A DNA stretch of 64,000 nucleotides from Stagnimonas sp. (GTDB lineage: Bacteria; Pseudomonadota; Gammaproteobacteria; Nevskiales; Nevskiaceae): positions 1 through 64,000 of the forward strand of contig JAUSQI010000153.1 of the NCBI GenBank assembly GCA_030652575.1. The letters run 5' to 3'. Below the pieces are notes generated by a model. The model was not told where the DNA came from. It saw only the letters and a list, made by a program, of their open reading frames with translations, and did not search any database. Below are positions 40,687 to 57,865 of the stretch, one piece after another (position 1 is the stretch's first letter; every line of letters starts with the position of its first letter). A program made the translations under genes and the position numbers.

Positions 40687-42155
40687 AAGGTCAAACCGGG
40701 TGAGAGAGATGAGGGTTTCTCCAGCTTGGGCGCTTCGCTCGATGCAACCGGGTAGCTGCAATAGTCCGCTGCATAGTAGGCGCTGGGCCGGTGGTTGCCG
40801 GAATGGCCGGGGCCACCAAACGGGAAGCTGCCGGAGGCCCCCGTGGTCTGCCGGTTGCGGTTGACGATGCCGGCGCGGATGCGTTTGAAGAACTGCGCCC
40901 ACTCGGCATCGTCGTCGGTGAGCATGCCGGCGCTCAGACCAAATTGCGTGTTGTTGGCCTGGGCGATGCTTTCGTCGAGCGAGGCGGTGCGGATGACTTT
41001 CAGCAGCGGGCCGAAGTCTTCTTCGTCCGGTACGTCGGCAACGCAGGCGGTGATGTCGATGAGGCCGGGCGAGACGAAGGCATCGCCCTTGTCGAGACGC
41101 TGCATTTTCAGCAGCGGCGTGGCGCCGAGTGCGATGAGGCGCGTTTGAGAGTCCAGCAGCAGCTGCGCGGCGCGCGATGAGACGACCGGGCCCATGAAGG
41201 GTGCGGGTTCGTCCTCGCTGCCGCCGATGCGCAGGGCTTTGGTGACTTCGATCAGCCGCGCGAGCAGGGCATCGCCCTTGGCGCCAGCAGGCACCATCAA
41301 GCGACGCGCGCAGGTGCAGCGCTGGCCGCTGGTGATCCAGCTCGACTGCACGATCTCGTGCACGGCCGCATCGACATCGCCGACGCTGCCGATGACCAGC
41401 GGATTGTTGCCGCCGAGTTCCAGCGCGAGGATCACATGCGGCCGTGCGGCGAACTGAGTGCTAAGGATGCCGCCGGTGCGGGCGCTGCCGGTGAAGTAGA
41501 GGCCATCGAGCTGCTTGTGCGCCGCCACCGCTTCGCCCGTCGCCCGCTCGCCCTGCACGAGGTTGATGACACCTGGCGGCAGGCCGGCGGCCTCCCAGCA
41601 CTTCAGTGTTTCCTCGGCGACCATCGGCGTCAGCTCGCTGGGCTTGAACACCACGGTATTGCCGGCGAGCAGGGCGGGCACGATGTGGCCGTTGGGCAGA
41701 TGGCCGGGAAAGTTGTACGGCCCGAACACCGCGACCACGCCATGCGGCTTGTGGCGCAGGATGAAGCGGCCGAACGGCTGGGCCTGTTCACGGGTGCCGG
41801 TGCGCTCGTGATAGGCCGCAATCGAGAGTTCGATCTTGCCTGCCATCGCAGCGACTTCCGTGCGTGCTTCCCACAGCGGCTTGCCCACTTCGCGGGCGAT
41901 GGTCAGTGCCAGTGTCTCGCTGCGCTCTTTCAGCACCGCCGCAAAGCGCCGCGCAAAGCCAGCGCGCTCGTCGAAACTCAGATCGGCCCAGGGCTCGAAC
42001 GCAGCGCGGGCGGCGGTGAAGGCGGCATCGACATCGGCCGCATCGGCGCTGTGTCCCTGCCAGAGCGAAGCGCCGGTCGAAGGGTTGTGACTCTCGAAGG
42101 TCGCGCCGTGGCCGGACTGCCAGTAGCCGTTGATGAAAAGCGGATTGTTGGTCAT
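40683..42155 (-). CDS. astD: N-succinylglutamate 5-semialdehyde dehydrogenase
   Basis: A 490-residue NAD-dependent aldehyde dehydrogenase, fourth step of the arginine succinyltransferase pathway (succinylglutamate semialdehyde to succinylglutamate). Signatures: start MTNNPLFINGYW, VFGPYNFPGHLPNGHIVPAL, the catalytic Glu in LALELGGNNPLVI, the catalytic Cys in SSWITSGQRCTCARR, and the AstD-type tail NRQTTGASGSFPFGGPGHSG. I start at the ATG at 42155 because the residues before it are an Arg-rich, non-conserved extension. Its stop overlaps the start of the phospholipase-D-like gene. Confidence 0.95.
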   Translation of the reverse strand: MTNNPLFINGYWQSGHGATFESHNPSTGASLWQGHSADAADVDAAFTAARAAFEPWADLSFDERAGFARRFAAVLKERSETLALTIAREVGKPLWEARTEVAAMAGKIELSIAAYHERTGTREQAQPFGRFILRHKPHGVVAVFGPYNFPGHLPNGHIVPALLAGNTVVFKPSELTPMVAEETLKCWEAAGLPPGVINLVQGERATGEAVAAHKQLDGLYFTGSARTGGILSTQFAARPHVILALELGGNNPLVIGSVGDVDAAVHEIVQSSWITSGQRCTCARRLMVPAGAKGDALLARLIEVTKALRIGGSEDEPAPFMGPVVSSRAAQLLLDSQTRLIALGATPLLKMQRLDKGDAFVSPGLIDITACVADVPDEEDFGPLLKVIRTASLDESIAQANNTQFGLSAGMLTDDDAEWAQFFKRIRAGIVNRNRQTTGASGSFPFGGPGHSGNHRPSAYYAADYCSYPVASSEAPKLEKPSSLSPGLTF

Positions 42156-42248
42156 GGGTCTGCTGCCGTAGTGCGTGCCACAGTTTAGGCAAACACAGAT
42201 TACCCCGCGCCTTCTTCGACGACGTGCTGTAGCAGCCAAACCTCACGA

Positions 42249-45155
42249 TCAGTGGAAGGACAGGCTCGTCTGCTCAGCCGCCGTGGCCTGCACCAGCCGC
42301 GCGTAGGCAAGCAGCTCACCGAGCCGTGCGTGCTTGCTGCGCCATTCGGCAAAGGCGCGTTCGCCCAGCAGCACATAGGCCCACTCGCGGTCACCACGAT
42401 GCTCCGGTGCAAGCCCGTTGAGCCGCGCACACCAGTTGAGTGCGGCCTTGCACTTGCGCTGCACATTGGGGTGGTTGAGTTGCCCTTGCGCCTTGGTCTC
42501 TACCAAGTAAATCCGTTCTGCCGTGCGCACCAGAAAATCCGGTGAGTAGTGGCCTGGAAGGCCGTCGTCCTTCACGTAGCGCAACTGCACAAAGCTGTGC
42601 TTCTGCTCATGCACTTTGCAGAAGGCTTCAATGCTCGCATCCACATTCGCCCACTCGATGAAGGCGCGTTCAAGCCCGCCAGAGCGGGCAGGGAAGGCAA
42701 GGCGTTCGTAGATGCACTTCTGCACCAGTAGCGAGCAACTTTCGCGCATGGGCAGATGAGTTACCTCTGACAAGAATCGCTGGCTCACCTCCGCCTCGCC
42801 ATCCAGCTCCACGTTCTCGGCCTCGATCAAGGCCAGCGCCAAGTGTTTCACCACATGGTCGAGCACAGGCTGCAACAGCAGCAGACGCCAGTTTTCATCC
42901 TCCAGCGGCTCAAAGCTCGCGCCAAAAAGCACGCGGCGGATGTAGTCATCAATACAAGCGGTCAAATAGGCCGGGTTCACCTGCAAATGCGGCAGCTGCA
43001 TGGTGCTGCTGACGCGATTGCCCTTGAGCGGCTGCGATAGCGCTTGCTGAATACGCCGTGTCAGTCGCGATAAGTAATCGTTGTAGCCCCCCACGTTCAT
43101 CGCCGCGCCATTCACGCGGTAATCGCCAAACAGCGTGCTGCTTTGCAGATCGTGCGAGATGAAGGTATCGCCCTTGCCCAACATGCCTTTGAGTTGCGGC
43201 AGGCCCATGTGGGTGAATGGCGTGAGCTTGTCCACCGCAATCAACTCTTGCCGCAGGGTCTCGTCTGCTTCACGCAATATGAAAGGAATGGCGAAATCAA
43301 ACTCCTCAAAGCCCTCGCGCAAACCGACGCTCAACAGGTCGCCAATACCTGACGTGCCATCGCTTTCTTCGGTGGTTTCGCCAGCCAAACCCTCCGCTGT
43401 CAGCTCGTCGTAAAATGCTTGAAAGGCGGGGTGTTCAATGATCGAGAGAATGTCGATGAGGCTCGATGGCTCCTGCCCCTTGTTGATGCGCTCGCGGTTC
43501 TCGCGCCGCACCGGGTCGTAGTCAGGCCCACGCCACATCAGGCGCAGACCACGCCCCAGCGTCTGCTCCAAAAGAATCTGAGCCTGTGAGGAACGCAGCG
43601 GCACGATGACGCAGATGTTGTTCACGTCAAAGCCCTCGCGCAGCATCAGCACGCTGACGATCACGCGCGGCTGTGTGCGCTTGTCCACGTCGAACAATTG
43701 CTCGCGCAGCTTGGCCCATTCGACCTCGCCCACCTCGCCCTTGCGGTTGCTATCCACCCGCAGCACTTCACCCTCGTTCAAGCCTTCCTGCTCCAGAAAC
43801 GCCTGCACCACGGGGGTGACACTGGTGTCTTCGCACACCACCAGCATCTTCGGGCGGCGGCTCGCATCCAGCACTGCGAAATCGGTTTCGAGCTTGCGCA
43901 GCTTGGCGAGGCCCGCACGCAGCATCACCCGCTGGCCCTCGCTCAAGGCGATGTTGCCATCGGCATCGCGCTCAGCCTTGAACTCCAGCGGCAGCGCGCC
44001 CAGCTCCTTGCGCTTGTCCAGCACCAGCGATTTCACCAGCCCCGCCCGCATCGCCTCCTTCAAATCGAAGTCCACGATCACATGCGGGAAGTACGCCTTG
44101 CGCGCCTTCTTGCCACTGCCCACCTGGTTGTAGGGGGTGGCCGAAAAGTCCACCTGCACAAACTGCCGCCCCTTGGTCTCGGCAATGCGGCTCAGGCTCT
44201 TTTGCCACTCCACCTCGGTCACTTCACCGCCCGCTTTCACCTCGTGGATGTGATGCGCCTCGTCGTTGAACACCATCAGGTCGGGCAGGGCGGCGAGGTA
44301 GTCGAGCACGCCGCCGCGTGCATAGGCGCGGTCGAGCTGATCCAGCGCATTGCCCGCACTGGTGCCGGGGCTGATGGGGAAGATCGAACGCACCACCGCA
44401 GCCGCATCCACATCGGCACCACGGGCTTCCAGCGTGTCGGCTTCTTCCTCCTCATCGCGCCCTGCCAGCAAGTGCCAATTGGTGAGTGCAATCAGGCCAT
44501 TGCCCGTGCTCTTCAAGCCGATCTCGGTTTTCGCGCAGGCGTTGTTGCGCACAAAGCCAAACAACTGCTCGCGTGCCCCTTCGGGGATGAACAGCTCGCG
44601 GTAGCTGTAAAGGTCGCTAGTCGCAAAGTCCCGCACACCCTCGCGCTGCTTGCCCATGAAGGCATCCAGCAGGCGTTCGTAGACGATCAGCCCCGGAGCC
44701 ACCACCAGAAACCGCCGCGTAAAACGCGCATCCTCCGGCGTGGCGGATTTGTTCAGCACCTGCCACACCAGCAGCGCCTGCAACACCCAGGTCTTGCCGG
44801 TGCCGGTCGCCATCTTCAAGCAGTATTTGGGGTGCGTGTGCTTGGTTTGATTCACCTCCGTCAGCCAGTCGCCCGTCAGCAGCAGCTCTGGCGCGGCCTG
44901 CTCATAAAGGCTCTTGAGTGAAGTGACGCCCAGCACCTCATGGGCATAGATCGTATTCAAGATCGCCCGCCGCTGGCCCTCATGAAAATTGATAGCGCGC
45001 GTATCGCAGTAATCAGTTTGAAACCAGAACTTGAGCAGGGCGGCAGTGACGGGTGTGACCTGTTCAAGCAGGGGTGCTGCGCCTGCCTCCAGCCCCAGGC
45101 TGGCGGCTGCAACGGTTTTGCTGAGGGCTACGGCCAGCGGGAGTGGAGTGCTCAT
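42249..45155 (-). CDS. res: Type III restriction enzyme, Res subunit (DEAH helicase + nuclease)
   Basis: A 968-residue Res subunit. The superfamily-2 motor has Walker A KMATGTGKTW, DEAH box FNDEAHHIHE, SATP in VDFSATPYNQ, SVLMLREGFDVNN and QTLGRGLRL. The carboxy end has a PD-(D/E)xK nuclease signature (SPDFLVRTAERIYLVETKAQ). All motifs look intact and the length is normal. By family it cuts DNA at a distance from unmethylated sites, and only in complex with a Mod subunit. mod lies upstream on the same strand but is separated by a two-gene VapD cassette on the opposite strand, so res must have its own promoter in the 35-nt gap or inside that cassette. Confidence 0.93.
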   Translation of the reverse strand: MSTPLPLAVALSKTVAAASLGLEAGAAPLLEQVTPVTAALLKFWFQTDYCDTRAINFHEGQRRAILNTIYAHEVLGVTSLKSLYEQAAPELLLTGDWLTEVNQTKHTHPKYCLKMATGTGKTWVLQALLVWQVLNKSATPEDARFTRRFLVVAPGLIVYERLLDAFMGKQREGVRDFATSDLYSYRELFIPEGAREQLFGFVRNNACAKTEIGLKSTGNGLIALTNWHLLAGRDEEEEADTLEARGADVDAAAVVRSIFPISPGTSAGNALDQLDRAYARGGVLDYLAALPDLMVFNDEAHHIHEVKAGGEVTEVEWQKSLSRIAETKGRQFVQVDFSATPYNQVGSGKKARKAYFPHVIVDFDLKEAMRAGLVKSLVLDKRKELGALPLEFKAERDADGNIALSEGQRVMLRAGLAKLRKLETDFAVLDASRRPKMLVVCEDTSVTPVVQAFLEQEGLNEGEVLRVDSNRKGEVGEVEWAKLREQLFDVDKRTQPRVIVSVLMLREGFDVNNICVIVPLRSSQAQILLEQTLGRGLRLMWRGPDYDPVRRENRERINKGQEPSSLIDILSIIEHPAFQAFYDELTAEGLAGETTEESDGTSGIGDLLSVGLREGFEEFDFAIPFILREADETLRQELIAVDKLTPFTHMGLPQLKGMLGKGDTFISHDLQSSTLFGDYRVNGAAMNVGGYNDYLSRLTRRIQQALSQPLKGNRVSSTMQLPHLQVNPAYLTACIDDYIRRVLFGASFEPLEDENWRLLLLQPVLDHVVKHLALALIEAENVELDGEAEVSQRFLSEVTHLPMRESCSLLVQKCIYERLAFPARSGGLERAFIEWANVDASIEAFCKVHEQKHSFVQLRYVKDDGLPGHYSPDFLVRTAERIYLVETKAQGQLNHPNVQRKCKAALNWCARLNGLAPEHRGDREWAYVLLGERAFAEWRSKHARLGELLAYARLVQATAAEQTSLSFH

Positions 45156-45190
45156 ATAATCATCATCACTGCGTTTTCAGGAGCAAAACC

Positions 45191-45382
45191 ATGCACAGCA
45201 ACACCGCCAGCAGCATTGGCAGCCGCCACACCTTCGGCGCATTTGGGCCTGTCTACGAAGTGCTTAAAACGGTTAAACACCTTGAGCAAGACGACTGTCT
45301 GATGCGCGTGCGGGTGCTGGAGTCGGGCGAAGAACTCGACTACCGCTACAGCAAGATCAAAGACGACCCCGAAGCGCGCTAA
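45191..45382 (+). CDS. DUF5397-family small protein (possible VapD partner)
   Basis: A 63-residue protein containing HTFGAFGPVYEVL, LMRVRVLESGEELDYRYSKI and DDPEAR, which is the DUF5397 pattern as I know it. An AGGAG ribosome site (45179-45183) lies 7 nt before the ATG at 45191, which fixes the start; the longer in-frame start at 45143 would begin inside res. It is 12 nt ahead of vapD. By position it is the likely antitoxin or partner of VapD; this is an inference from gene order. Confidence 0.8.
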   Translation: MHSNTASSIGSRHTFGAFGPVYEVLKTVKHLEQDDCLMRVRVLESGEELDYRYSKIKDDPEAR

Positions 45383-45394
45383 AGCCCGCAAGCC

Positions 45395-45676
45395 ATGTTC
45401 GCCATTGCCTTTGATCTGGTGGTTGCCGATACCGAGCGCGAGCACCCCAAGGGCGTGTGCGAGGCTTACTCCGAGATTGCCGCCACCCTGGCGGAATACG
45501 ACTTTCGCCTTGTGCATGGGAGCTTGTATGTGGCGGAGTCCGAAGACAGAACCAAACTCTTTGCGGCCATCAACGCCCTGAAGGGCAAGGCATGGTTCCG
45601 CGCGGCGGTGCGCGACATCCGTGCCTTCCGGATTGAGCAGTGGTCGGATTTCACGGCTGACATCAAGCAGGGTTGA
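45395..45676 (+). CDS. vapD: VapD-family endoribonuclease (toxin, Cas2-like fold)
   Basis: A 93-residue protein matching VapD: MFAIAFDLVVADTEREHP at the start (the first-strand Asp expected in this ferredoxin-like fold), EIAATLAEYDFRLVHGSLYV, and the tail FRIEQWSDFTADIKQG. VapD proteins are small RNases related in fold to Cas2 and act as toxins in toxin-antitoxin pairs. It follows the DUF5397 gene by 12 nt and ends 17 nt before the convergent end of mod. The pair sits between the mod and res genes on the opposite strand, where it could stabilise the locus. Confidence 0.9.
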   Translation: MFAIAFDLVVADTEREHPKGVCEAYSEIAATLAEYDFRLVHGSLYVAESEDRTKLFAAINALKGKAWFRAAVRDIRAFRIEQWSDFTADIKQG

Positions 45677-45693
45677 TTGCGGGGCTTGGGCGC

Positions 45694-47731
45694 TCATGCG
45701 CCCACCACCTGCACCGCTTCCGCCTCAAACCCGAACACATCCACCGCCCGCACGCACACCCGGCGCGGGCCAGCCTTGGCAGGCACGGTGAGCGTGGCGG
45801 TCGTCACTACCCTCAGCGGGTCGCCATCGTTATCGGTATTGCCGCGATAGTCCTGCCACACGCTGCGGAACACCTGCCCGTCGTAGTCCGGGTCTACCGC
45901 CCAATACTCGATCAGCGCCAGCGGTTCGGCATTGGCCACGGCGTGCAGCTTTTCGCGGTTGGCATCGTCGAGATTGATGGCATCAGGGGAGAGCAGCACA
46001 TAGTTGGCGAGGCGCACGGTCAGCGTTTCGTTGCCGGCCTCGGTGCGGCGCTGAATCGGTGCCAACGTCAAATACTGCAAGCTCGAAAACCGCAGCTTGC
46101 CCGCCAGCTTTTCCACCCCGCCTTTCTTCTTCAGGCGATCAAGCAGGTCAGGCGGAATCACCAGCACCTCCAGTCGTGCATCGTTCAAGCCCGCAATGGC
46201 CTGGCCCGCATCGCTGGTGAAGTTCCAGCCCAGCACCACCACCTTGTCCCAACCGCCCAGCAGGTTGTCGCGCAGGGTTTGCGCTTTCTTGAAGGTAGCG
46301 AGGCCGGTGAGCTTGGTGGGCGAATCGGCCAGCACCAGCGTTTTGCTGCCGCCCGCCACCACGCGGCCCAGATTACGGTTAGCGTTGTCCTCGGCTGACA
46401 AAGGCAGCGCGCCATAGAGCTGCAACACAATTTCTGCCAACTCACCGACGCGGAACTTGCGGCCCAGCGTGCTCTTGGCGGCCTCTAACTGATAGTCGCC
46501 AATGGCCTGGTAGAGAAAGGGCTTGGCGTTTTGGTCGATGAGCCGCTTGCGGGCAATCATGCAGGCGGGCTTGCCGAGGTCGCTGGTGATCCAGCGACGG
46601 CCCAGGCGCTCAGCGACGGAGGCAGTGGTGCCGCTTCCACAGAAAAAGTCGGCTACTAAATCGCCTTTTCGGCTGCTGGCTTTGAGAATGCGCTCTGAGA
46701 TCGCTTCGGGTTTTTGAGTTGCGTAGCGAAGATTTTCAACACGATCAGCGGGCTGAAGCATCGACATTCGCCACACATCATCAACAGATTTCTCATCCGT
46801 TTCGATGTAGATGACTTTTCCATCTGGGCCTTTTGCATTAACCAGTTTTTTCTTTTCTTTGTCCCAAACCCGCATCAACTGGCGAACTGTTTCTTCTCGT
46901 CCCTCTCTGACTCGCTCGAACTTTTTTTCATCACTTTTTGAATACCAAAAAATCACGTCATGGTTCGAAGCAAAACGGCCCACGTTGCCCTGAAGCTTGT
47001 TGTAGTAGTGCCAAACAATCTCGTTGACGAATTGGTGCTTGCCAAAAATCTCATCTAAAACAATCTTGACGTAATGCCCCACATGCCAATCCAGATGCAC
47101 ATAAATGCTGCCGGTATCGGCCAATAGCTCGCGCATCAGCACCAGACGCGGCGTGAGCATGGCGAGGTAGCTGGCGGTGCCATCAGCCCAGGTATCGGAG
47201 TAGGCAAACTGCTCGATGACGGTGGGCTTCTGCTCAATCTCCACGCCCGGCAGCGTCACCTTGGTGCGGTAGTCAGCCTTGCTGTCGAACGGTGGGTCGA
47301 TGTAGATCAAATCCACCTTGCCGCGCAGGGGAGGGGTGAACTCATCACCGGCCAAGAGGGCTGCCATCGCCAGCAGGTTGTCGCCATAGATCAGGCGATT
47401 CTCGAACGGTGCCGCCTTGGCTAAGCCAGCGGGAGCCGCTGCCGTGAGCGTGGCTTGCAGGGGTGCAAATATCTCGGCTTGGGGCTTGACTAGCTCAGGC
47501 AACGAGGCATCGTTTCTCGCTCGCTCGCTCGCTCGCTCGCTCGCTCTGCGCGTCGCGGCGGGCGCTGGCGTTGATCCAATCGGCATTGGCGCTGTCTTTG
47601 GCGGGCAGAACCCATTCGCGGGTTTGCAGGCTCACACGATGACGGCCTTCCAAGCCCTCAAGAATCTGCTCGGCTTGTTTCTTGCCGGTAGCGACGATGT
47701 CGGGGAGTTGTTCAAGCAGTGACTTGGGCAT
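45694..47731 (-). CDS. mod: Type III DNA methyltransferase (Mod), split by a tetranucleotide tract: phase-variable, currently out of frame
   Basis: A beta-class adenine methyltransferase gene in two frames. The true amino end starts at 47731 ([20 protein letters not shown] ... [20 protein letters not shown]), as in type III Mod proteins, but this frame stops at 47495, just past a CTCG repeat tract. The rest (45694 to about 47520) is open in another frame: [29 protein letters not shown] (DPPF), a middle target-recognition region and [12 protein letters not shown]. Loss of one 4-nt unit, or gain of two, joins the frames to a ~678-residue protein. A start at 47586 ([10 protein letters not shown]) lies in the downstream frame and might give a truncated enzyme. 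The target-recognition part is more AT-rich than the flanks. Confidence 0.92.
47516..47546 (-). repeat. Tetranucleotide (CTCG)7.75 slippage tract within mod
   Basis: Seven perfect CTCG units plus CTC, 31 nt with no interruption. On the coding strand it reads AGCG repeated and encodes SER/ASER repeats in either frame. It lies where the two mod frames meet. Confidence 0.95.
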
Positions 47732-47751
47732 AGATGGTTAAAGGCTGTGAT

Positions 47752-48165
47752 TCAAATCAGGACAATGCCACTGCTGCGCGCAGCAGCACGCAGGGCATCG
47801 TTTTTGGTGGCGAGTGGCAGTTGCAGCCGCATGGCGAGTTCGAGGTGGCTGGCGTCGTAAGCGGAGAGTTCGTAGCGGAGTGCCAGCTTGAGAAGCTCGT
47901 CAGTTTCGACCGGTGTTTCGTTGACCAGAAACGGCAATGCTTGATGCTCGACAATGATCGCGAACGCCTCGGCCTCTGTGATGCGCTGACCACGGATGGC
48001 TTTCTTCATGACATGTGCAAACTCAAGCCGCCAGGCTGGCGGTGCACAGGCCGTCTGGGTTGTCAGGAGTTTGAAGATGCGTTCCGTTTCAGACCTGATT
48101 ATAGGAGTTCCAATCATCCATCCCGTAGCCAGAGTCGATGGCATTCGATGCACTTCAAATAACAA
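47752..48165 (-). CDS. PIN-domain (VapC-like) protein, probably degraded at the N-terminus
   Basis: A 137-residue frame with a recognisable PIN-domain body: APPAWRLEFAHVMKKAIRG (second acidic position), LALRYELSAYDASHLELAMR (third) and LPLATKNDALRAAARSSGI. The first catalytic Asp, expected in a VLDAS-type start, is missing: the residues there are HRMPSTLATGW. The reading frame begins at a TTG and has no good ribosome site. No antitoxin gene is adjacent. I think this is a remnant of a VapBC pair. It starts beside the putative Fur site of the receptor gene and ends 20 nt before mod. Confidence 0.65.
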   Translation of the reverse strand: MLFEVHRMPSTLATGWMIGTPIIRSETERIFKLLTTQTACAPPAWRLEFAHVMKKAIRGQRITEAEAFAIIVEHQALPFLVNETPVETDELLKLALRYELSAYDASHLELAMRLQLPLATKNDALRAAARSSGIVLI

Positions 48166-48179
48166 TGGTTCTCATGTAG
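48161..48179 (+). promoter_or_regulatory. Putative Fur-binding site upstream of the iron operon
   Basis: AACAATGGTTCTCATGTAG agrees with the 19-nt Fur consensus at about 10 positions, and an overlapping imperfect palindrome (GAATCGCATTC, 48179-48189) extends it. It is 132 nt before the receptor start. The rest of the 146-nt gap before the receptor holds only the AGGAG ribosome site (48302-48306). Confidence 0.4.
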
Positions 48180-48311
48180 AATCGCATTCGTCTCATAGGC
48201 AAGGCATGTGGAGGTTCTTCAGGCCAGTACCGAATTAGGAAGACAAGAGCGATGTCGCGGCCGCCAGTCCGCGTGCTCTGCGGTACGCCCACCCACTTGA
48301 CAGGAGTCTCC

Positions 48312-50693
48312 ATGAAGTTCCGTTTGAAGCCCATCGCCGCCGCCGTTCTCGCTCTCCACGCCTTGCCGGGCACCGCCCAGGAGACACAGCCGGTCGCCGA
48401 ATCGACGGCTGCCGAACAACCGGCCACCCAGCTGCCCGCAGTGAAGGTGCAGGACGAAGTGATCCAGGAATACAAGGTCGATCGCATCTCGTCGCCCAAA
48501 TTCACGCAGCCCCTGGTCAACACCACGCAGACCATCAGCGTCGTCAAGAAGGAAGTGATGGCGGAGCAGGGCGCGCTCTCGCTGAGCGATGCCTTGCGCA
48601 ACACGCCCGGCATCACCTTCCAGGCCGGTGAAAACGGCAACTCCACCAGCGGCGATGCGATCTTCCTGCGCGGCTTCGACACCCAGGGCAGCATCTTCCT
48701 CGACAACATCCGCGATCTCGGCCCCGCCGTGCGCGATCTGTTCAACGTCGAGCAGGTCGAGATCGTCAAAGGCCCGGCTGGTGCCGACAACGGTCGCGGT
48801 GCGGCGTCCGGCTATATCAACCTGGTCAGCAAAACCCCTTTTGCGGATGACCTGGTCTCCGGCACTGCGAGCTACGGCAGCGCCGACCGCCGCCGCGTCA
48901 CGGCGGACATCAACCAGAAGGTGGGCGAGCACTCTGCCGTGCGTCTGAATGTGATCGGCCAGGACGGCGGTGTGGCCGGCCGGGACTTCATCGAGCGCCA
49001 GCAGTGGGGCATCGCGCCGTCGCTGGCACTGGGCCTGGGCACCGCCACCCGTATCACGCTGTTCTCGCAGCACATCCAGCAGAACAACACGCCGGACGGC
49101 GGCGTCTCGGCCATCGGCATTTCGGGCTACCGCAATCTCATCCTCGAAGGCCGCGACGCCAACGGCAACGCGACCAATTCCACCGGCACGCCGGTGATTG
49201 CGCAGACGGTCGACTCCGACAATTTCTATGGCCTCGACGACGACTTCGAGGACATCCGCGCCAACATGTTCACCGCGCGCATCGAGCACGACCTGCGGCC
49301 GGGTCTGACGGTGCGCAACACCTCGCGCTATGGCGACAGCGACCAGGCGCGCATCCTCACCGCACCGCTGCAGGCGCCGGTCGTTTCGGATGACCCGGAT
49401 GGCACCGGGCCGATGCTGCCGGTGGTGCGTGCCGACCCCAACACCTGGACGCAGGGCCGCAACCGCCAGGCGAGCTATCGCGACAACCAGATTCTCACCA
49501 ACCAGACCAATCTCACGGCCGCCTTCAAGACCGGCGCGATCGAGCACTCGCTGACCAGCGGTGTCGAGTTCATCTACGAATCGCAGTTCACACCGACCTA
49601 CGCGGTGGTGGGCGCAGCACAGACACCCGCCAACCTCTACAACCCCAACCGCACCGATGCCGCCGCAACACTGGCTCCCAATGGCGCGTTCTCCGATGGC
49701 GACACCACCACGGCCGCGATCTACGCCTTCGACACCATCAAGCTGAGCGAAAAGGTGCAGCTCAACGGTGGTCTGCGTGTGGAGCGTTACAAGACCGCCA
49801 CCGACAGCGCCAGCCTGTCGACGGCCGCGGCCAACCCGACGCTGCCGGTCGGCACCTTGATTCCGGCGCACATCGAGGACTCCGAGAACCTGCTCAGCTA
49901 CAAGGTCGGCGCGCTCTACAAGCCTCGGCCCGAGGGCAGCATCTACGTCGCCTACGCCAACTCGCTGCGTCCGCCCAGCGGCGACAACTTCACACTGTCG
50001 GCGGCGACCACCGCAGCCGGCGCGCCCAACGCCAACATCAACAGCCCGGCGCTGGACCCGCAGGAGGCCACCAACATCGAGCTCGGCACCAAGTGGGATC
50101 TGCTCGGCGGCAAGCTGGCCGTGACGGCGGCGCTGTTCAAGAGCGAGAACAAGAACGACCTCGCCCGCGCCGCCGACGACAGCATCATCCAGTACGGCAA
50201 GCGCGAGGTTGAAGGTCTGGAGCTGGGCCTGGTCGGCCAGATCACCACCGGCTGGCAGGCCAGTGTCGGCTACACCTATCAGGACACCAAGGTCTCCGAG
50301 GGCTCGCTCGCCACCGATGGCACCAGCACGCAGACGGGTGCGGCGATCAACTTCTCGCCGAAGAACAGCGCCACGGTGTGGACGACCTACGACCTGCCGT
50401 TGCCGATGCTGCCCCGGCCGCTGACGCTCGGCGGTGGCCTGCGCTACGTCGACAGCCAGGCGCGCACCGTCAACAACAATCTGGCGGGCGTGACCAGCGG
50501 CATTGTCGAGGTCAAGAGCTACACGGTGTTCGACGCAATGGCCTCTTACGAGGTCACGCAAAACCTCGGCGTGCAGTTCAACATCTACAACCTCGCCGAC
50601 GAGGACTACGTGGCCAGCGTCAACAACTCCGGCCAGCGTTACTTCCCGGACATTCCGCGTTCGTTCCTCGTCACGCTCAACGCCAAGTTTTGA
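48312..50693 (+). CDS. fiu: TonB-dependent catecholate-siderophore receptor (Fiu-like)
   Basis: A 793-residue outer-membrane receptor. Signal peptide MKFRLKPIAAAVLALHALPG, then a TonB-box-like segment (AVKVQDEVIQ), a plug domain (TTQTISVVKKEVMAEQGALS ... DALRNTPGITFQAGENGN, IFLRGFDTQGSIFLDNIRDL, EIVKGPAGADNGRGAASGYI) and a 22-strand barrel ending in DIPRSFLVTLNAKF with the terminal Phe. The match is to the Fiu/catecholate group, which imports ferric monomeric catechols. The ATG at 48312 has AGGAG upstream. It heads a ten-gene operon with PiuC, TonB, ExbB and ExbD, and is probably Fur-controlled. Confidence 0.92.
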   Translation: MKFRLKPIAAAVLALHALPGTAQETQPVAESTAAEQPATQLPAVKVQDEVIQEYKVDRISSPKFTQPLVNTTQTISVVKKEVMAEQGALSLSDALRNTPGITFQAGENGNSTSGDAIFLRGFDTQGSIFLDNIRDLGPAVRDLFNVEQVEIVKGPAGADNGRGAASGYINLVSKTPFADDLVSGTASYGSADRRRVTADINQKVGEHSAVRLNVIGQDGGVAGRDFIERQQWGIAPSLALGLGTATRITLFSQHIQQNNTPDGGVSAIGISGYRNLILEGRDANGNATNSTGTPVIAQTVDSDNFYGLDDDFEDIRANMFTARIEHDLRPGLTVRNTSRYGDSDQARILTAPLQAPVVSDDPDGTGPMLPVVRADPNTWTQGRNRQASYRDNQILTNQTNLTAAFKTGAIEHSLTSGVEFIYESQFTPTYAVVGAAQTPANLYNPNRTDAAATLAPNGAFSDGDTTTAAIYAFDTIKLSEKVQLNGGLRVERYKTATDSASLSTAAANPTLPVGTLIPAHIEDSENLLSYKVGALYKPRPEGSIYVAYANSLRPPSGDNFTLSAATTAAGAPNANINSPALDPQEATNIELGTKWDLLGGKLAVTAALFKSENKNDLARAADDSIIQYGKREVEGLELGLVGQITTGWQASVGYTYQDTKVSEGSLATDGTSTQTGAAINFSPKNSATVWTTYDLPLPMLPRPLTLGGGLRYVDSQARTVNNNLAGVTSGIVEVKSYTVFDAMASYEVTQNLGVQFNIYNLADEDYVASVNNSGQRYFPDIPRSFLVTLNAKF

Positions 50694-50705
50694 GGGAGGG
50701 TCACC

Positions 50706-51386
50706 GTGTTGCTGCACATCCCCCAGTTGCTGACGACCGATGAGCTGACCGCGATACGGTCAGCTCTGGCCCAGGCCAACTGGGAGGATGGCCGCAACAC
50801 GGCAGGGCACCAGGCCGTCAAGGTCAAGCACAACGACCAGCTCAGCGAGGAGCATCCGCTCGCGCGCGAGCTGGGCGATGTGGTGCTCAAGGCGCTGGCA
50901 CGCAGCAGTCTGTTCACGGCGGCCGCATTGCCGTTGAAAGTATTCCCGCCGTTGTTCAACCGCTATCAAGGCGGTGGTCACTTCGGCATGCACATCGACA
51001 CTGCGGTGCGACTGACGCGGCTGCCGCCGCATCGGGTGCGCACCGATTTATCCGCCACCCTGTTTCTGGCCGCGCCCGAGGAGTACGACGGCGGCGAGCT
51101 GGCGGTGGAAGACCACTACGGCTCGCATCACGTGAAACTGCCTGCGGGCGATCTCATTCTTTACCCGGCCAGCAGCCTGCACGAGGTGCGGCCGGTGACA
51201 CGCGGCGCGCGACTGGCCGCGTTCTTCTGGGTGCAAAGCATGGTGCGGGAGGATGCGCGCCGCAGCCAGCTCTACGAGATGGATCGCGCCATCCAGCAGC
51301 TGACGGCGGATCATCCGGGCCACCCTGCCTTGCTGAAGTTGACCGGCGTTTATCACAACCTGTTGCGGCAGTGGGCAGAGCTGTGA
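50706..51386 (+). CDS. piuC: PiuC/YbiX-type Fe(II)/2-oxoglutarate hydroxylase
   Basis: A 226-residue PKHD-type dioxygenase. The iron-binding triad is visible as HIDTAV (HxD) and the distal His in [20 protein letters not shown], with Arg for 2-oxoglutarate in that same stretch. [20 protein letters not shown] is typical of the family. By gene order in many bacteria it accompanies Fiu/PiuA receptors and is thought to modify or help release iron from the siderophore. The start is a GTG at 50706, 12 nt after the receptor stop. Its stop overlaps the tonB start by 4 nt (GTGA). Confidence 0.92.
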
Positions 51387-52069
51387 GCACATTGGCATTG
51401 GAAGCCGACTACAGATTGGCACAGCGCATGGGCAGACCACAGCGTGGCCTCGCCGGGCTGCTGATCGTCGGCCTGCATGTCGGTGCCTTGGCCGCGCTGA
51501 TGCACCTGCCCGCCGAATCGGCACCGTTGCCGGCACCGCAGGCCATGATGGTGAGCTTTATCAGCGAGCCCGCTCCGCCCAAGGTGGAGCCGCCGCCGCC
51601 CGAGCCACCACCACCGCCCAAGCCGCTGCCCAAGCTGGTTGCAAGCAGCAAGCCGACGCCTTCAGTCATGCAGGCGCCGCCGCCGGATGAACTGCCAGCG
51701 GTTGAAGAGACGGCTGCTGAGTTGCCGCCAGCGCCGCCACAGCCGCCAGCACCCGCGCCCGAGCCAGAGCCAGAGCCGGTGATCGTGCCGCCCAATTTCG
51801 TCGCCGCCTATCTCAATAATCCGGGGCCGGCGTATCCGTATGTTTCGAAGCGTCAGCGCGAGCAGGGCGAGGTGATGTTGCGGGTGCTGGTGAGCGCGGC
51901 GGGCCGCGCCGAGCAGGTGCTGATCGAGCGCAGCAGCGGCCACAGCCGGCTTGACGAGGCGGCACAGGAAGTGGTGCTGAAACGCTGGCGTTTCGTAGCG
52001 GCCAAGAAGGGCGACCAGGCGATTTCCGCCTGGGTTCTGGTCCCCATCCAATTTGAATTGAAGGGTTAG
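51383..52069 (+). CDS. tonB: TonB energy-transducing protein
   Basis: A 228-residue protein: short cytoplasmic start, one membrane helix (about 22-42, [20 protein letters not shown]), a long Pro-rich periplasmic spacer (about 60-135, [11 protein letters not shown] and [11 protein letters not shown]) and a carboxy-terminal TonB domain ([20 protein letters not shown] ... [20 protein letters not shown]). It transmits proton-motive energy from ExbB/ExbD to the receptor. The GTG start at 51383 overlaps the piuC stop, indicating translational coupling; a GTG 12 nt earlier is also in frame. Confidence 0.93.
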
Positions 52070-52080
52070 CAAAGCAAGCA

Positions 52081-52821
52081 ATGGACACAATGCAGAGCAT
52101 GGGCTTCGGCCATTTCATCCAGCAGGCCGATGGTGTGGCAAAGGCCATCCTGATCATCATGCTGCTGGCCTCGATCAGCAGCTGGTATCTCATCGTCACC
52201 AAGCTGATCTCGTACCGCCGCGCGCGCAATCGCAGCACCAAATTTTTGGACTTCTTTTGGAATGCACCCTCGCTCGACGTGGTGGCGGCCGAGATTGAAC
52301 AGCGACACCCGGACGAACCGTTTTCGCACCTCGCCTACCACGGCATCGCCGCCAGTCGGCACCACGAGCGGCACGGCATCAATCGCCTCAACGAGGCGGG
52401 CAGCTCCAGCGATTTCGTCACCCGCACGCTGCGCAAGACCATCGACGAAGAAACCGCCAATCTCGAATCCGGCCTCACCATCCTGGCGTCAGTCGGGGCC
52501 ACGGCACCGTTCGTGGGTCTGCTCGGCACGGTGTGGGGCATCTATCACGCGCTGGTCGCCATTGGCATTTCCGGCGCTGGCACGCTGGATAAAGTCGCGG
52601 GGCCAGTGGGCGAGGCGCTGATCATGACGGCCATTGGTCTGGCGGTCGCGATCCCGGCGGTGCTGGGCTACAACGTCATCGTCCGCGCCAACCGCATGAC
52701 GCTGTCGCAGCTCGATGGCTTCGCGCATGATCTGTTCACCTTCCTCGGCACCGGCGTGAAGTACGACGCGCAGACCGGCAGCAGCGTCACCCCGCTGAAG
52801 CTCAACACAGCGAGGAATTGA
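52081..52821 (+). CDS. exbB: ExbB, TonB-complex proton-channel protein
   Basis: A 246-residue MotA/TolQ/ExbB-family inner-membrane protein with three membrane helices: about 20-40 (AKAILIIMLLASISSWYLIV), 140-162 (LTILASVGATAPFVGLLGTV) and 180-203 (ALIMTAIGLAVAIPAVLGYN). The GTVWGIYHAL motif of the family is present. It works with ExbD and TonB from the same operon. The ATG lies 12 nt after tonB and 3 nt before the exbD start at its other end. Confidence 0.95.
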   Translation: MDTMQSMGFGHFIQQADGVAKAILIIMLLASISSWYLIVTKLISYRRARNRSTKFLDFFWNAPSLDVVAAEIEQRHPDEPFSHLAYHGIAASRHHERHGINRLNEAGSSSDFVTRTLRKTIDEETANLESGLTILASVGATAPFVGLLGTVWGIYHALVAIGISGAGTLDKVAGPVGEALIMTAIGLAVAIPAVLGYNVIVRANRMTLSQLDGFAHDLFTFLGTGVKYDAQTGSSVTPLKLNTARN

Positions 52822-52823
52822 GC

Positions 52824-53270
52824 ATGGCCTTCGGCAGCTTTGGCGCGAGCCGCAACAACGCCCCGATGGCGGAGATCAACGTCGTGCCGATGGTCGACAT
52901 CATGTTGGTGCTGCTGGTGATCTTCATCATCACCGCACCCTTGCTGAGTCATGCGGTGAAGATCGACCTGCCCAAGGCCAGCAGCACGCCCAACGCTTTG
53001 CAGGCCGACAACATCCAGTTCGCCATCGACGCCGCAGGCCTGATGTATTGGAACGGCGAGGCGCTGGCGATGCCGCAGGTGATCCAGCGCATGGCAGCGG
53101 CAGGGCAGAAACAGCCCACGCCGGAACTGCACTTGCGCATCGACCGCGACGCCCGCTACCAGCAGATCGCCGAAGTGATGAGCGAGGCCGGCAAGGCGGG
53201 CCTCGGCAAGGTCGGCTTCGTCACCGATCCCTCCGGCGCGCCGGTGACCACCGTGTTGCCGCAGCCCTGA
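52824..53270 (+). CDS. exbD: ExbD, TonB-complex protein
   Basis: A 148-residue ExbD/TolR-family protein with one membrane helix near the amino end and a periplasmic domain. The helix carries the functional Asp in INVVPMVDIMLVLLVIFIIT, and the tail LHLRIDRDARYQQIAEVMSE is typical. It is the proton-conducting partner of ExbB. An in-frame TTG at 52818 overlaps the exbB end; I prefer the ATG at 52824. Confidence 0.95.
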   Translation: MAFGSFGASRNNAPMAEINVVPMVDIMLVLLVIFIITAPLLSHAVKIDLPKASSTPNALQADNIQFAIDAAGLMYWNGEALAMPQVIQRMAAAGQKQPTPELHLRIDRDARYQQIAEVMSEAGKAGLGKVGFVTDPSGAPVTTVLPQP

Positions 53271-53277
53271 TTTGCCC

Positions 53278-53910
53278 ATGAGCGCCGACGCCCCCGCCGC
53301 GCGCCAGCGCCGTTCGTACTGGCTCAAGACCCTGCACCAGTGGCACTGGATCAGCGCCGCCTTGAGCCTCATCGGCTTGATCGTGTTCGCCATCACCGGC
53401 ATCACCCTCAATCACGCCTCGCAGATCAAGGCCACGCCCCAGGTCGTGACGCTCAAGGCCACGTTGCCGGAGCCGCTGCGCGAATCGCTCGCCACGCAGC
53501 CAGAGCAGGGTACCGCGCCGTTGCCGCCAGCTCTGCGTGCGTGGCTCGCCGACGAGTGGTCGCTGCGCAGCGGCGGCCGCGAGGCGGAGTGGTCGGCAGA
53601 CGAGGTGTATCTGTCGCTGCCGCGCCCCGGCGGCGATGGCTGGCTGAGTGTTGATCGCGCCAGTGGTGAACTGGAATACGAGCAGACCGACCGCGGCTGG
53701 GTCTCCTACTTCAACGACCTGCACAAGGGCCGCAACGCCGGGCCGATGTGGGGTTGGTTCATTGATCTATTCGCCGGTGCCTGCCTGCTGTTCGCGCTCA
53801 CCGGTTTGTTCCTGCTCAAGCTGCATGCCGTGCAGCGCCCTTTGACCTGGCCTGTGGTCGGGCTGGGTGTGGTCATCCCGCTGCTGCTGGCGCTGCTGTT
53901 CGTTCACTAA
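53278..53910 (+). CDS. PepSY-associated transmembrane protein
   Basis: A 210-residue membrane protein of the PepSY-TM type: YWLKTLHQWHWISAALSLIG with two His residues next to the first helix (about 16-43), a periplasmic domain with the PepSY-like phrase GDGWLSVDRASGELEYEQTD, then YFNDLHKGRNAGPMWGWFID before two more helices. The conserved His residues near the membrane suggest haem binding or electron transfer across the membrane, as in siderophore-reducing PiuB-type systems. In this operon it lies between exbD and the DUF2271 gene, and it could carry electrons from the cytoplasmic flavoprotein to the periplasm. Confidence 0.85.
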   Translation: MSADAPAARQRRSYWLKTLHQWHWISAALSLIGLIVFAITGITLNHASQIKATPQVVTLKATLPEPLRESLATQPEQGTAPLPPALRAWLADEWSLRSGGREAEWSADEVYLSLPRPGGDGWLSVDRASGELEYEQTDRGWVSYFNDLHKGRNAGPMWGWFIDLFAGACLLFALTGLFLLKLHAVQRPLTWPVVGLGVVIPLLLALLFVH

Positions 53911-53938
53911 CCCTTTTTTCCCGACGCCGAGAACCCTA

Positions 53939-54514
53939 ATGCGTACTCCACAACTTTCTTCCTTCGCGCTGGCCCTGAGCGGTGGCTTGCTGGCTGGTCC
54001 AGCCTCTGCTGCTGGCCTCGATATCCGTATCCAGATCCCCCAGCTCGATGTCGCCGAATACCACCGCCCCTATGTCGCGGTGTGGGTGGAGCGTGAAGAC
54101 CGCAGCGTTGCCGCCAACTTGAGCGTCTGGTACCAACAGAAACGCGCTGCTGCCCCAGCCGCTGCCGCCCCGGCAGCGGGCGCGCCGCCGCAGGGCAACG
54201 AGGGTGGCACCAAATGGCTGCCCGACTTGCGCCAGTGGTGGCGTCGTGGTGGTCGCGAGCTGAGCCTGCCGGTCGATGGCTTGAGCGGTGCCACCCGCCC
54301 GGTCGGTGAACACGACTTGCAGTTCGGTGATGGCAAGACGCCGCTGCCTGCTTTGCCTGCGGGCAAATACAAGTTGATGGTGGAAGCCGCGCGCGAGGAA
54401 GGCGGCCGCGAGCTGGTCGAGATCCCGTTTGAATGGCCGGCCAAGGCCGGCACGCCGCTGAAAGCACAGGGCAAGAGCGAGCTGGGTGCCGTCAGCCTCG
54501 TCGTCAAGTCCTGA
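53939..54514 (+). CDS. Exported DUF2271 protein with an ApbE flavinylation motif
   Basis: A 191-residue periplasmic protein: signal peptide MRTPQLSSFALALSGGLLAG with AlaSerAla cleavage near residue 24, then the DUF2271 pattern (PYVAVWVEREDRSVAANLSV ... WLPDLRQWWRRGGRE). Residues 113-119 read DGLSGAT (54275-54295), the motif at which ApbE attaches FMN through the Thr (here Thr119) in NqrC/RnfG-type flavoproteins. ApbE is encoded two genes downstream. So this is probably a covalent FMN electron carrier. A Pro/Ala insertion lies at about 70-85. I chose the ATG at 53939, which gives the signal peptide. Confidence 0.85.
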   Translation: MRTPQLSSFALALSGGLLAGPASAAGLDIRIQIPQLDVAEYHRPYVAVWVEREDRSVAANLSVWYQQKRAAAPAAAAPAAGAPPQGNEGGTKWLPDLRQWWRRGGRELSLPVDGLSGATRPVGEHDLQFGDGKTPLPALPAGKYKLMVEAAREEGGRELVEIPFEWPAKAGTPLKAQGKSELGAVSLVVKS

Positions 54515-54539
54515 ACCACACCCCGCTTGGAGCCACACC

Positions 54540-55358
54540 ATGAATAACTCTACCCGCAGCGCCCTCGTCCTCGCCGCGCTGCTGCTGCCCTTGAGCAGCC
54601 ACGCCCACAAGGGCTGGTTGCAGCCCAGCAAGACCGTGCTCAATGTCGGCCAGTGGGTCACGGTCGATGCCGCCAGCTCGACCGATCCTTTCGTCAAGGA
54701 TCACAACGCCATGCGCCTTGAGAGCCTGCTCATCACCGCGCCCGATGGCAGTACGGTCGCCGCCGAAAACCTGAGCAGCGGCAAGCTGCGCAGCAGCTTC
54801 GATCTGCAACTCAAGCAGGCGGGCACCTATCGCCTGGCGGTGGTCAACAACGGCCTCAATGCCAGCTGGGAGGTGGATGGCCAGCGCAAGTCCTGGCCGC
54901 CGCGTGGCCAGCCCGCCACCGCAGAAGGCTTTGCCAAAGAGGTTCCCGCCAAGGCCGACAAGCTCAAGGTGGTGAGCTCTCAGCGCCGGCTCGAAACCTT
55001 CGTCACCGCCGGCAAGCCCAACGTCACCGCGCTGCAACCCAGCGGCGTTGGCCTGGAACTGGTCGTCGCCCAAGGTGTGAACGATCTCTACAGCAACGAG
55101 CCTGCGACCTTGCAGTTTCTGCTCGACGGCAAGCCCGCGCCCAAGCTCAAGGTGGAGCTGATCGCCGACGGCGTGCGCTATCGCAACAGCGTCGGCGAGA
55201 TCGAGCTGGTCACCGACGCCGAGGGCAAGGTGAAAGTGCAGTGGCCGCAGCCCGGTCTGTACTGGATCAGCACTTCGACAGAAGACCAGAACGCCACCGC
55301 ACCCGCCACCGAGCGCCGCGCCAGCTACACGGCAACGCTGGAAGTGCTGTCGCCCTGA
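54540..55358 (+). CDS. Exported DUF4198 protein
   Basis: A 272-residue periplasmic protein with signal peptide MNNSTRSALVLAALLLPLSS and a mature start HAHKGWLQPSKTVLNVGQWV, typical of DUF4198 (a beta-sandwich family often found with iron, nickel or cobalt uptake genes). The carboxy half has an Ig-like repeat (PATLQFLLDGKPAPKLKVEL ... GVRYRNSVGEIELVTDAEGK). A His pair at the mature amino terminus could bind metal. It sits between the DUF2271 and ApbE genes; a role as partner of the flavinylated protein is inferred from order only. Confidence 0.85.
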   Translation: MNNSTRSALVLAALLLPLSSHAHKGWLQPSKTVLNVGQWVTVDAASSTDPFVKDHNAMRLESLLITAPDGSTVAAENLSSGKLRSSFDLQLKQAGTYRLAVVNNGLNASWEVDGQRKSWPPRGQPATAEGFAKEVPAKADKLKVVSSQRRLETFVTAGKPNVTALQPSGVGLELVVAQGVNDLYSNEPATLQFLLDGKPAPKLKVELIADGVRYRNSVGEIELVTDAEGKVKVQWPQPGLYWISTSTEDQNATAPATERRASYTATLEVLSP

Positions 55359-55376
55359 TCTGTAGATGATTCAAGG

Positions 55377-56414
55377 GTGCGCCGCACGATGACCGAAGCC
55401 GCCAAGCGCATCCTCATCCCCCAGCGGCTGAGTGCGGCCGCACAGGCAGGTGCAGCACCCGGCGCGGTGCTGCACAGCCTGAGCGGCGAGAGCATGGGCA
55501 CGCGCTGGACGGTGAAGCTGTCGGCACCGCCGCGCGCGCTCGAACCTTTGCAGCGGCTAGTGCAGGCCGAGCTGGATCGCGTGGTGGCCGAGATGAGCAG
55601 CTGGCAGGCCGACTCCGAGCTCTGCCGCTACAACGCCGCCGAGGCCGGCAGCTGGCAGCAGTTGCCGGATGGCTTCTTCGAGGTGATGCAGCAGGCGCTG
55701 CTGGTGGCTGACGACAGTGCTGGTGCCTATGACCCCACGGCGGGCCCGCTGGTGGATTGCTGGGGTTTTGGGCCTGCGCCGCGCCGCAGCACGCCGCCTT
55801 CGAGTGAGGAGATTACGAACGCGCTGGCGCAGGTCGGCTGGCAACGCGTGCGGCTCGATGTCACTCATCGCCGCCTGCTGCAACCGGGCGGTGCGCAGCT
55901 CGATCTCTCGGCGATTGCCAAGGGCTACGGCGTCGATCTGCTGGCACGCGCGCTGGCCGCACAAGGCTTGCACCACTACTTGGTGGAGGTGGGCGGCGAG
56001 CTGCGCGGGCAGGGCTGCAAGCCGGATGGCAGCCCGTGGTGGGTGCAGCTGGAAGCGCCGGATGCGCAAGCAGGTCATGCGCCCATCTTGCTCGCGCTGG
56101 ATGGCCTCGCCGTCGCCAGCTCCGGCGACTACCGCCGCTATTTCGAGAGCGGCGGGCAGCGCTACGCGCACACCATCGACCCCCGCGATGGCTGGCCGCT
56201 GCGCCATGAGCTGGCATCGGTGAGCGTGGTGCATACGTCCTGCATGCGGGCCGATGCGCTCTCCACCGCGCTATTCGTGCTGGGGCTTGAGCAGGGCCTG
56301 CAATACGCCAGTCAGCATGGGCTAGCGGCACACTTTGTCGAACGCCACGCGGGCGAGAGCGGCCCGATCTACCAAGAGCGTTGGTCGCCCGCATTAGAGG
56401 CATTGCTGGAATGA
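55377..56414 (+). CDS. apbE: ApbE-family FAD:protein FMN transferase
   Basis: A 345-residue flavin transferase that moves FMN from FAD to a Thr in target proteins. Motifs: SGESMGTRWTVKL, DPTAGPLVDCWGFG, LDLSAIAKGYGVDLLAR, the FAD/metal-binding segment RYAHTIDPRDGWPL and CMRADALSTALFVLG. No signal peptide or lipobox is visible, which is unusual, because most ApbE proteins act outside the cytoplasm; no alternative start upstream restores one. Either the 5' end is altered or it acts before export. The likely substrate is the DUF2271 protein of the same operon. Starts at GTG 55377 or ATG 55389. The stop overlaps the reductase ATG (ATGA). Confidence 0.9.
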   Translation: MRRTMTEAAKRILIPQRLSAAAQAGAAPGAVLHSLSGESMGTRWTVKLSAPPRALEPLQRLVQAELDRVVAEMSSWQADSELCRYNAAEAGSWQQLPDGFFEVMQQALLVADDSAGAYDPTAGPLVDCWGFGPAPRRSTPPSSEEITNALAQVGWQRVRLDVTHRRLLQPGGAQLDLSAIAKGYGVDLLARALAAQGLHHYLVEVGGELRGQGCKPDGSPWWVQLEAPDAQAGHAPILLALDGLAVASSGDYRRYFESGGQRYAHTIDPRDGWPLRHELASVSVVHTSCMRADALSTALFVLGLEQGLQYASQHGLAAHFVERHAGESGPIYQERWSPALEALLE

Positions 56415-57847
56415 AGAAACCGGGTTTGGGAACGCTGGGTCTGCTGATGATTGGGCTGCTGTCGGTCTGGTCGTTCTTTGGTCAGCACGCGCCCATCGCC
56501 TGGCCGCAGCCTTCTGAGCAGGCTTTGTTGTCGGCGGCGGTGACGGTGCTGGTGTATGTGCTGGCCTGCACCGCATTGCTCTGGCGTCGGCGCGCAAAGC
56601 CGGCGGCACCAGCAGCGGGCGAGGGCGCGCTGCTGGTGGTCTACGCCAGCCAGACCGGCCATGCCGAGCAGCTGGCGCAACACAGTGCCGATGCGCTGCG
56701 TGCGGCAGGCCAGTCGGTTGAACTGTTGCCGCTGGGCGCGCTGGATGCCGCGCGTCTGCGACGGCACGACCGCATGTTGTTCGTGATCAGCACTACGGGC
56801 GAGGGCGATGCGCCCGACAACGCCTTCCGCTTTCTCGCGCGCATGACCGAGCAGCACCCGCTGCCGACGCTGCGCTACGGCGTGCTCGCCCTCGGCGACC
56901 GCCGCTATCAGCACTACTGCGGCTTCGGCCATGCGGTCGCAAGTTGGTTGCGGCAGCAGGGCGCGCAAGCCTTGTTCGAGACCATTGAAGTCAACGATGG
57001 CGATGCCGCAGCGCTGAAGCAGTGGCAGCAGCAGCTGGGCCAGCTCGCAGGCAATGCGGTGATCGGCAGCTGGGCACAGGCCGAGTTTCCGCGCTGGCGA
57101 TTGGTCGAGCGCCGCCAGCTCAACCCCGGCAGCGTCGGCGGCCCGGTGCACCATCTCGCCTTCGAGCCGGTGTCAGCGCTGCCCGCGTGGCAGGCGGGTG
57201 ATATCGCCGAAGTGCGCTTGCCGCAGCGCGATGCCGCCGAGCCTGTGCAGCAACGCGACTACTCCATCGCTTCGCTGCCCACCGATGGTCGTCTCGAATT
57301 GCTGGTGCGCGAGCAGCGCGATGCCGAGGGCAGGTTGGGTCGCGGCTCCGGCTGGCTGTGCGTACAGGCGGTGATCGGTGAAGAGATCGCCATGCAAGTG
57401 CGCAGCAACCGCAGTTTTCATCTGCCCGACGACAACCGCCCGCTGATTCTCATCGGCAATGGCACCGGGCTTGCGGGCTTGCGGGCCTTGCTGAAGGCGC
57501 GCGCGGCAGCGGGCCAGCACCGCAACTGGCTGCTGTATGGCGAGCGCAACGCCGCGCACGATCAGGTCTATGGCGGCGAGTTGGCCGACTGGCAGCAAGC
57601 GGGCGTGCTCACGCGCGTGGACTTTGCCTGGTCGCGCGACCAGCCCGAACGCATCTACGTGCAACAGCGATTGCAGCAAGCGGCCGACCTCCTGCGCAGC
57701 TGGGTCGCCGAGGGCGCAGCCATCTATGTGTGCGGCGGTGCGCAAGACATGGCTCCGGCGGTAGAGCAGGTGCTGCTGGCCGAGCTGGGCGCAGAAACGC
57801 TGCAAACCCTGCGAGAGACGGGTCGCTATCGCCGCGACGTGTATTGA
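56411..57847 (+). CDS. Membrane-anchored flavodoxin/NADPH-flavoprotein reductase (CysJ/P450-reductase-like)
   Basis: A 478-residue diflavin reductase. Two amino-terminal membrane segments (about 5-23 and 37-57) anchor it, followed by an FMN flavodoxin domain (LLVVYASQTGHAEQLAQHSA, FVISTTGEGDAPDN, YGVLALGDRRYQHYCGFG), an FAD domain (RDYSIASLPTDGRLELLVRE) and an NAD(P)H domain (ILIGNGTGLAGLRALLKAR, WLLYGERNAAHDQVY, YVCGGAQDMAPAVEQVLLAE). It can take electrons from NADPH and pass them to the membrane PepSY protein and so to the periplasmic flavoprotein, for ferric-siderophore reduction; that route is inferred from the operon. Its start overlaps the apbE stop. The frame also opens at 56381, inside apbE. 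Confidence 0.88.
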   Translation: MKKPGLGTLGLLMIGLLSVWSFFGQHAPIAWPQPSEQALLSAAVTVLVYVLACTALLWRRRAKPAAPAAGEGALLVVYASQTGHAEQLAQHSADALRAAGQSVELLPLGALDAARLRRHDRMLFVISTTGEGDAPDNAFRFLARMTEQHPLPTLRYGVLALGDRRYQHYCGFGHAVASWLRQQGAQALFETIEVNDGDAAALKQWQQQLGQLAGNAVIGSWAQAEFPRWRLVERRQLNPGSVGGPVHHLAFEPVSALPAWQAGDIAEVRLPQRDAAEPVQQRDYSIASLPTDGRLELLVREQRDAEGRLGRGSGWLCVQAVIGEEIAMQVRSNRSFHLPDDNRPLILIGNGTGLAGLRALLKARAAAGQHRNWLLYGERNAAHDQVYGGELADWQQAGVLTRVDFAWSRDQPERIYVQQRLQQAADLLRSWVAEGAAIYVCGGAQDMAPAVEQVLLAELGAETLQTLRETGRYRRDVY

Positions 57848-57865
57848 ACGGCTTGTAACCCGACC

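Follow-up and report, generated by a model that had tools for sequence, protein, structure and literature searches.

A tetranucleotide repeat within a type III mod gene of Stagnimonas sp. and its probable role as an ON/OFF switch

Gene content and genomic setting

The window analysed here, a 64,000-nt stretch of contig JAUSQI010000153.1 of Stagnimonas sp., contains a type III restriction-modification (R-M) locus in which mod (47731-45694) and the downstream res (42249-45155) both lie on the (-) strand. The res gene encodes an intact 968-aa type III restriction subunit with a ResIII match, the Walker A motif GTGKT, DEAH and PDFLVRTAERIYLVETK, which places helicase motifs and a C-terminal PD-(D/E)XK nuclease adjacent to mod. 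It is collinear with its orthologues at 44-68% identity, and in one genome scan 75 of the 80 orthologous loci allowed a mod-res pair to be scored. Besides a frame break at a repeat tract in mod, no further lesions were found in mod or res.

Between mod and res lie two small ORFs on the opposite (+) strand. The first (45191-45382) is DUF5397/VapX-like, while the second (45395-45676) would encode a VapD-like toxin with a Cas2-like fold, which matches NF041506 at E 6e-4 (below its cut-off) and the Cas2 model at E 4e-7. A similar DNA segment occurs on Neisseria and Sulfuriferula plasmids, where it is annotated as VapD and DUF5397. Directly 5' of mod is a PIN-domain ORF (47752-48165, (-) strand) in which the first ~18 profile positions are missing and beside which no antitoxin gene is evident; it is probably a VapC remnant. 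Toxin-antitoxin genes recur within or beside this type III R-M family. The VapD/VapX-like genes of the window occupy 45143-45676 on the (+) strand, a HigB-HigA pair fills the same mod-res gap in the same orientation in six orthologous loci, and HigBA is found directly 5' of mod on several plasmids. This association is possibly a habit of the family, by way of locus stabilisation or linked defence.

The R-M locus belongs to a segment of ~15.7 kb (42138-57866) that also carries iron-uptake genes, with a Fiu-like siderophore receptor and, apparently, PiuC-like, TonB/ExbB/ExbD-like and other genes. Two relatives of the genus lack the segment at this site; in both, the match to 42133 is followed within ~157 bp by the match to 57959. 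A third relative has a shorter, different insert at the site, with another TonB receptor. The G+C content of the R-M part is 0.58-0.62, against mostly 0.64-0.70 around it. Elsewhere in the window, at 4785-4921, a 46-bp unit is present in three tandem copies with 93% identity.

Identity and distribution of Mod

The Mod body (45694-47515, (-) strand) comprises an N6_N4_Mtase domain, a target recognition region and a C-terminal part, and is intact in a frame that differs from that of the amino terminus. An earlier sequence-only reading of the window had taken mod for a type III methyltransferase gene, an assignment that sequence profiles and a structure model both support. A profile search places an N6_N4 methylase domain in the body (E 6.3e-45), the best PADLOC score is MTase_III (E 9.5e-81), and the sequence matches EcoP15I Mod (4zcf) at E 4.3e-15. 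Motif IV, the DPPF of IYIDPPFD, lies ahead of AdoMet motif I, as in the beta class of type III enzymes. DPPY/F in motif IV alone does not separate m6A from m4C type III enzymes. For the Arenimonas orthologue an AlphaFold2 model was made from 25 family members (mean pLDDT 71); its best fold match in the PDB is EcoP15I Mod (4zcf), with 640 alignment columns and E 7.5e-17.

The Mod family has a patchy distribution and is mobile. One other member was found among 369 sampled genomes of the class. Two other families have members in 8 of 345 and in 18 of 351 genomes, with the seed genomes included in the counts. Several orthologous mod genes are broken, three by in-frame stops and that of genome G894 by an insertion of ~1 kb that splits it, so inactivation is not rare in the family. 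An orthologous res from Azotobacter vinelandii CA has a (GCACG)5 tract of 25 nt in its 5' part (L058:8059-8083); this gene is frameshifted further downstream and may be a pseudogene.

The repeat tract

Within the mod reading frame, at 47516-47546 on the (-) strand, is a (GAGC/CTCG)7.75 tract of 31 nt, in which the 7.75 copies match at 100%, as first described. The GAGC unit is free of stops, which leaves the tract open in all three frames, and its translated cycle is S-E-R-A. The expectation for a period-4 tract of at least 31 nt under a third-order Markov model is ~6e-8 per 3.44-Mb genome, or ~1e-9 per 64 kb, which bears out the earlier claim that the tract lies beyond chance. Period-4 tracts in 332 kb of the same genome number 61 of 10 nt, 17 of 11 nt, 4 of 12 nt and one each of 13 and 15 nt, after which comes the mod tract at 31 nt; the longest in 1.36 Mb of other loci is 16 nt. 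A genome search finds (GAGC)4 or longer at a single place in the 3.44-Mb assembly, and no comparable tract occurs in the N-terminal parts sampled from two further type III-like mod genes of this genome. A tract beyond chance inside a mod ORF, with a unit length that is not a multiple of three, supports its placement in the class of repeat that drives phase variation.

A search for the same tract in related genomes had been proposed, and its outcome was negative. No comparable tract is present in ~73 orthologous mod genes, and none was seen in orthologues of up to ~71% identity from the genus, wider relatives, one genome scan, two viral-contig scans, plasmids and phages. Across 156 loci and the plasmid copies, a search for simple sequence repeats (SSRs) yielded in mod at most A runs of 8 nt or dinucleotides of five units. 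The tract appears from these comparisons to be a private innovation of this lineage. Likewise no second sequence with a different unit number was found in the genus, the family, wider relatives, plasmids, phages or viral contigs.

The unit number is read from one draft assembly of 177 contigs, in which no 16S was found and which is probably metagenome-derived. Since repeat tracts are error-prone, the real number could be 6 or 9, with the gene ON. This is improbable, as 31 nt is less than the length of ordinary short reads and an error of a few bases could not create the tract itself; even with 6 or 9 units the gene would be switchable.

Reading frames and the start of Mod

The frame from ATG 47731 stops at 47495, giving a truncated product of 78 aa in the seven-unit state (47495-47731, (-) strand), while the methylase lies in a 630-aa frame (47586-45694, (-) strand) that opens at an out-of-frame internal ATG and is without the conserved amino terminus. 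With 7 GAGC units the amino terminus and the intact methyltransferase body are therefore in different frames, in agreement with the sequence-only reading that mod is now in the OFF frame. When the unit number is varied in silico, 0, 3, 6, 9 and 12 units each give one continuous Mod ORF of 669-685 aa from 47731. The frame is restored by the loss of one unit (6 units, 677 aa) or the gain of two (9 units, 681 aa), as had been worked out before, whereas translation stops after 78 aa at 7 units and after 81 aa at 8 units. Stops thus lie close behind the tract in both OFF frames, and in silico a change in unit number switches Mod between its full length and a truncated form.

The conserved Mod amino terminus spans 47547-47731 on the (-) strand, and the comparison of 73 orthologous N termini confirms what had been recognised at 47731 as typical of Mod. 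In the orthologues, from many phyla and from Proteobacteria to archaea, the same amino terminus is in frame with the body, which identifies 47731 as the true start. Where the motif can be recognised, the orthologous protein opens with M[ASP] and continues through LQTRExVLPxxD to a linker, followed by a conserved second part. The linker is hypervariable in length and sequence among orthologues, and it is the linker that holds the tract; of the two conserved parts, the window has the first in the 47731 frame and the second in the other. The amino-terminal part includes a long helix in the structure model.

By mean identity to the unique orthologues, the amino terminus of the window ranks sixth of 48. 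Over 46 codons it differs from its closest relatives by 16-22 synonymous and 7-9 nonsynonymous changes. Its conservation, and the excess of synonymous over nonsynonymous differences, indicate that it has been under selection and was translated within Mod up to the present or the very recent past. This selection is the strongest evidence on the state of the gene, and from these sequence comparisons the seven-unit state is most likely the OFF state of a working gene, not a gene that starts at 47586.

Two readings nevertheless give the internal ATG a role. ATG 47586 shares the Mod frame exactly at 1, 4, 7 and 10 units, and the whole MTase domain lies downstream of it, so the tract could switch between isoforms, with a 630-aa Mod, active or altered, at 7 units, the full protein at 6 or 9 and none at 8. 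The ~60 residues that the shorter protein would lack are conserved between phyla and include the long helix of the model, which makes such a product very doubtful. The 47586 frame before the tract would encode a low-complexity protein and has no sign of coding, and no Shine-Dalgarno-like sequence is seen upstream of 47586, although none is seen upstream of 47731 either. A three-state switch, in which 3n units give full Mod, 3n+1 units a truncated Mod with altered behaviour (methylation but no restriction, or the opposite, for example) and 3n+2 units none, is just as improbable. As the main reading, 47586 as the real start was rejected on the ~57-residue amino terminus, conserved from Proteobacteria to archaea and in frame with the body. 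Automatic annotation will pick out the 630-aa ORF that opens at 47586 and so miss the conserved amino terminus.

An ON/OFF switch as the best explanation

The best explanation, to which we give a probability of roughly 0.7, is that slippage switches a complete type III R-M system ON and OFF, and that the assembly caught it in the OFF frame. Slipped-strand mispairing would add or remove GAGC units in the non-conserved linker that joins the conserved amino terminus to the methyltransferase domain. Whenever the number of units is 3n (6 or 9), a full-length Mod would be made, the host would be methylated and foreign DNA would be restricted together with Res. With 7 units, the assembly state, or 8, ribosomes starting at 47731 would stop after 78-81 codons. 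A cell in the OFF state would have no Mod and so would neither modify nor restrict, and the population would be a mix of protected and permissive cells. A return from OFF to ON could expose the cell to cleavage while methylation is still incomplete.

Type III Res needs Mod, as is established for EcoP1I and EcoP15I, and an OFF cell would therefore drop modification and restriction together without damage to itself. Type III systems tolerate the risk of the return to ON, as they need two unmodified sites in opposed orientation. The tract sits where orthologues tolerate any length and sequence, so extra SERA repeats should not harm the protein. Of the phase-variable type III mod that was originally proposed, the type III identity, the 47731 start, the out-of-frame state and the class of the tract stand, while the case for switching is made in silico. 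We infer that slippage would occur at useful rates, that OFF cells would lose Mod activity and that the switch would serve phage defence or DNA uptake. Gene regulation is no more than a possible purpose, in which case the locus might control a phasevarion. Because Res is intact, phase-variable restriction is no less likely than gene regulation to be what the switch is for. The locus offers a test case of what such switches are mainly for: phage defence and DNA uptake, or gene regulation of the virulence type.

Seven units is short, which counts against a switch; well-studied modA tracts are longer than seven units. Tetranucleotide tracts in H. influenzae gain or lose units at ~1e-4 per generation, and the screen of this species' genomes for such tracts set its threshold at a few units (PMC2651432). 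Slippage rate depends on tract length according to the passages of PMC2651432 and PMC11868660 that cite De Bolle et al. 2000.

The mod gene could alternatively have been inactivated recently and one way, by slippage in a fortuitous repeat, with a tract too short for frequent reversion and decay already begun. The orthologues without the tract fit this account, as does a patchy, mobile family with broken members, among them the mod genes described above and the frameshifted A. vinelandii res. It is nonetheless unlikely, if the least unlikely of the alternatives, because mod and res are otherwise without lesions and the N terminus is conserved as in intact genes. A perfect tract of 31 nt, moreover, needs repeated slippage to grow and so implies instability at least in the past. 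Ordinary pseudogene decay was rejected on the same two grounds of lesions and N-terminal conservation. With the N terminus conserved, and the mod body and res open and collinear, the frameshift should be very recent or reversible and not old decay.

Comparison with known systems

The proposed switch resembles the SSR-switched mod genes modA, modB and modD of Haemophilus and Neisseria, modM of Moraxella, ModS of Streptococcus suis and modH of Helicobacter. Here, as there, a type III mod ORF has in its 5' part a tract whose unit number sets the frame, and a beta-class Mod lies beside res. It differs from them in its Mod lineage, marked by a conserved KSLLEQLP amino terminus and motif IV DPPF, and in having a GAGC unit in a high-GC genome, in a tract private to the lineage, whereas the modA tract is conserved. 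Further differences are the intact res and the toxin-antitoxin-like genes between mod and res. EcoP15I (4zcf) shares the Mod and Res organisation and matches in sequence and fold, although at ~17% identity in the structural alignment, and no repeat switch is known in its mod.

The m4C type III systems (BspHIV, PleII, Eco86II and others) are alike in their beta-class Mod, motif IV DPPY/F and PD-(D/E)XK Res; according to a 2021 paper no phase-variable member had by then been described (PMC8259958), and a cytosine-specific phase-variable ModP1 appears in a review of 2026 (PMC13076061). The sequence-only reading held that no such system was known from this kind of organism, which is too strong, since SSRs are reported in 17.4% of type III mod genes, commensal and environmental species included (PMC7394358). 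On that figure the kind of switch is itself not new. We found no described case for this Mod lineage, the list of the primary survey of mod SSRs aside, and what the locus presents is a known kind of switch in a new place.
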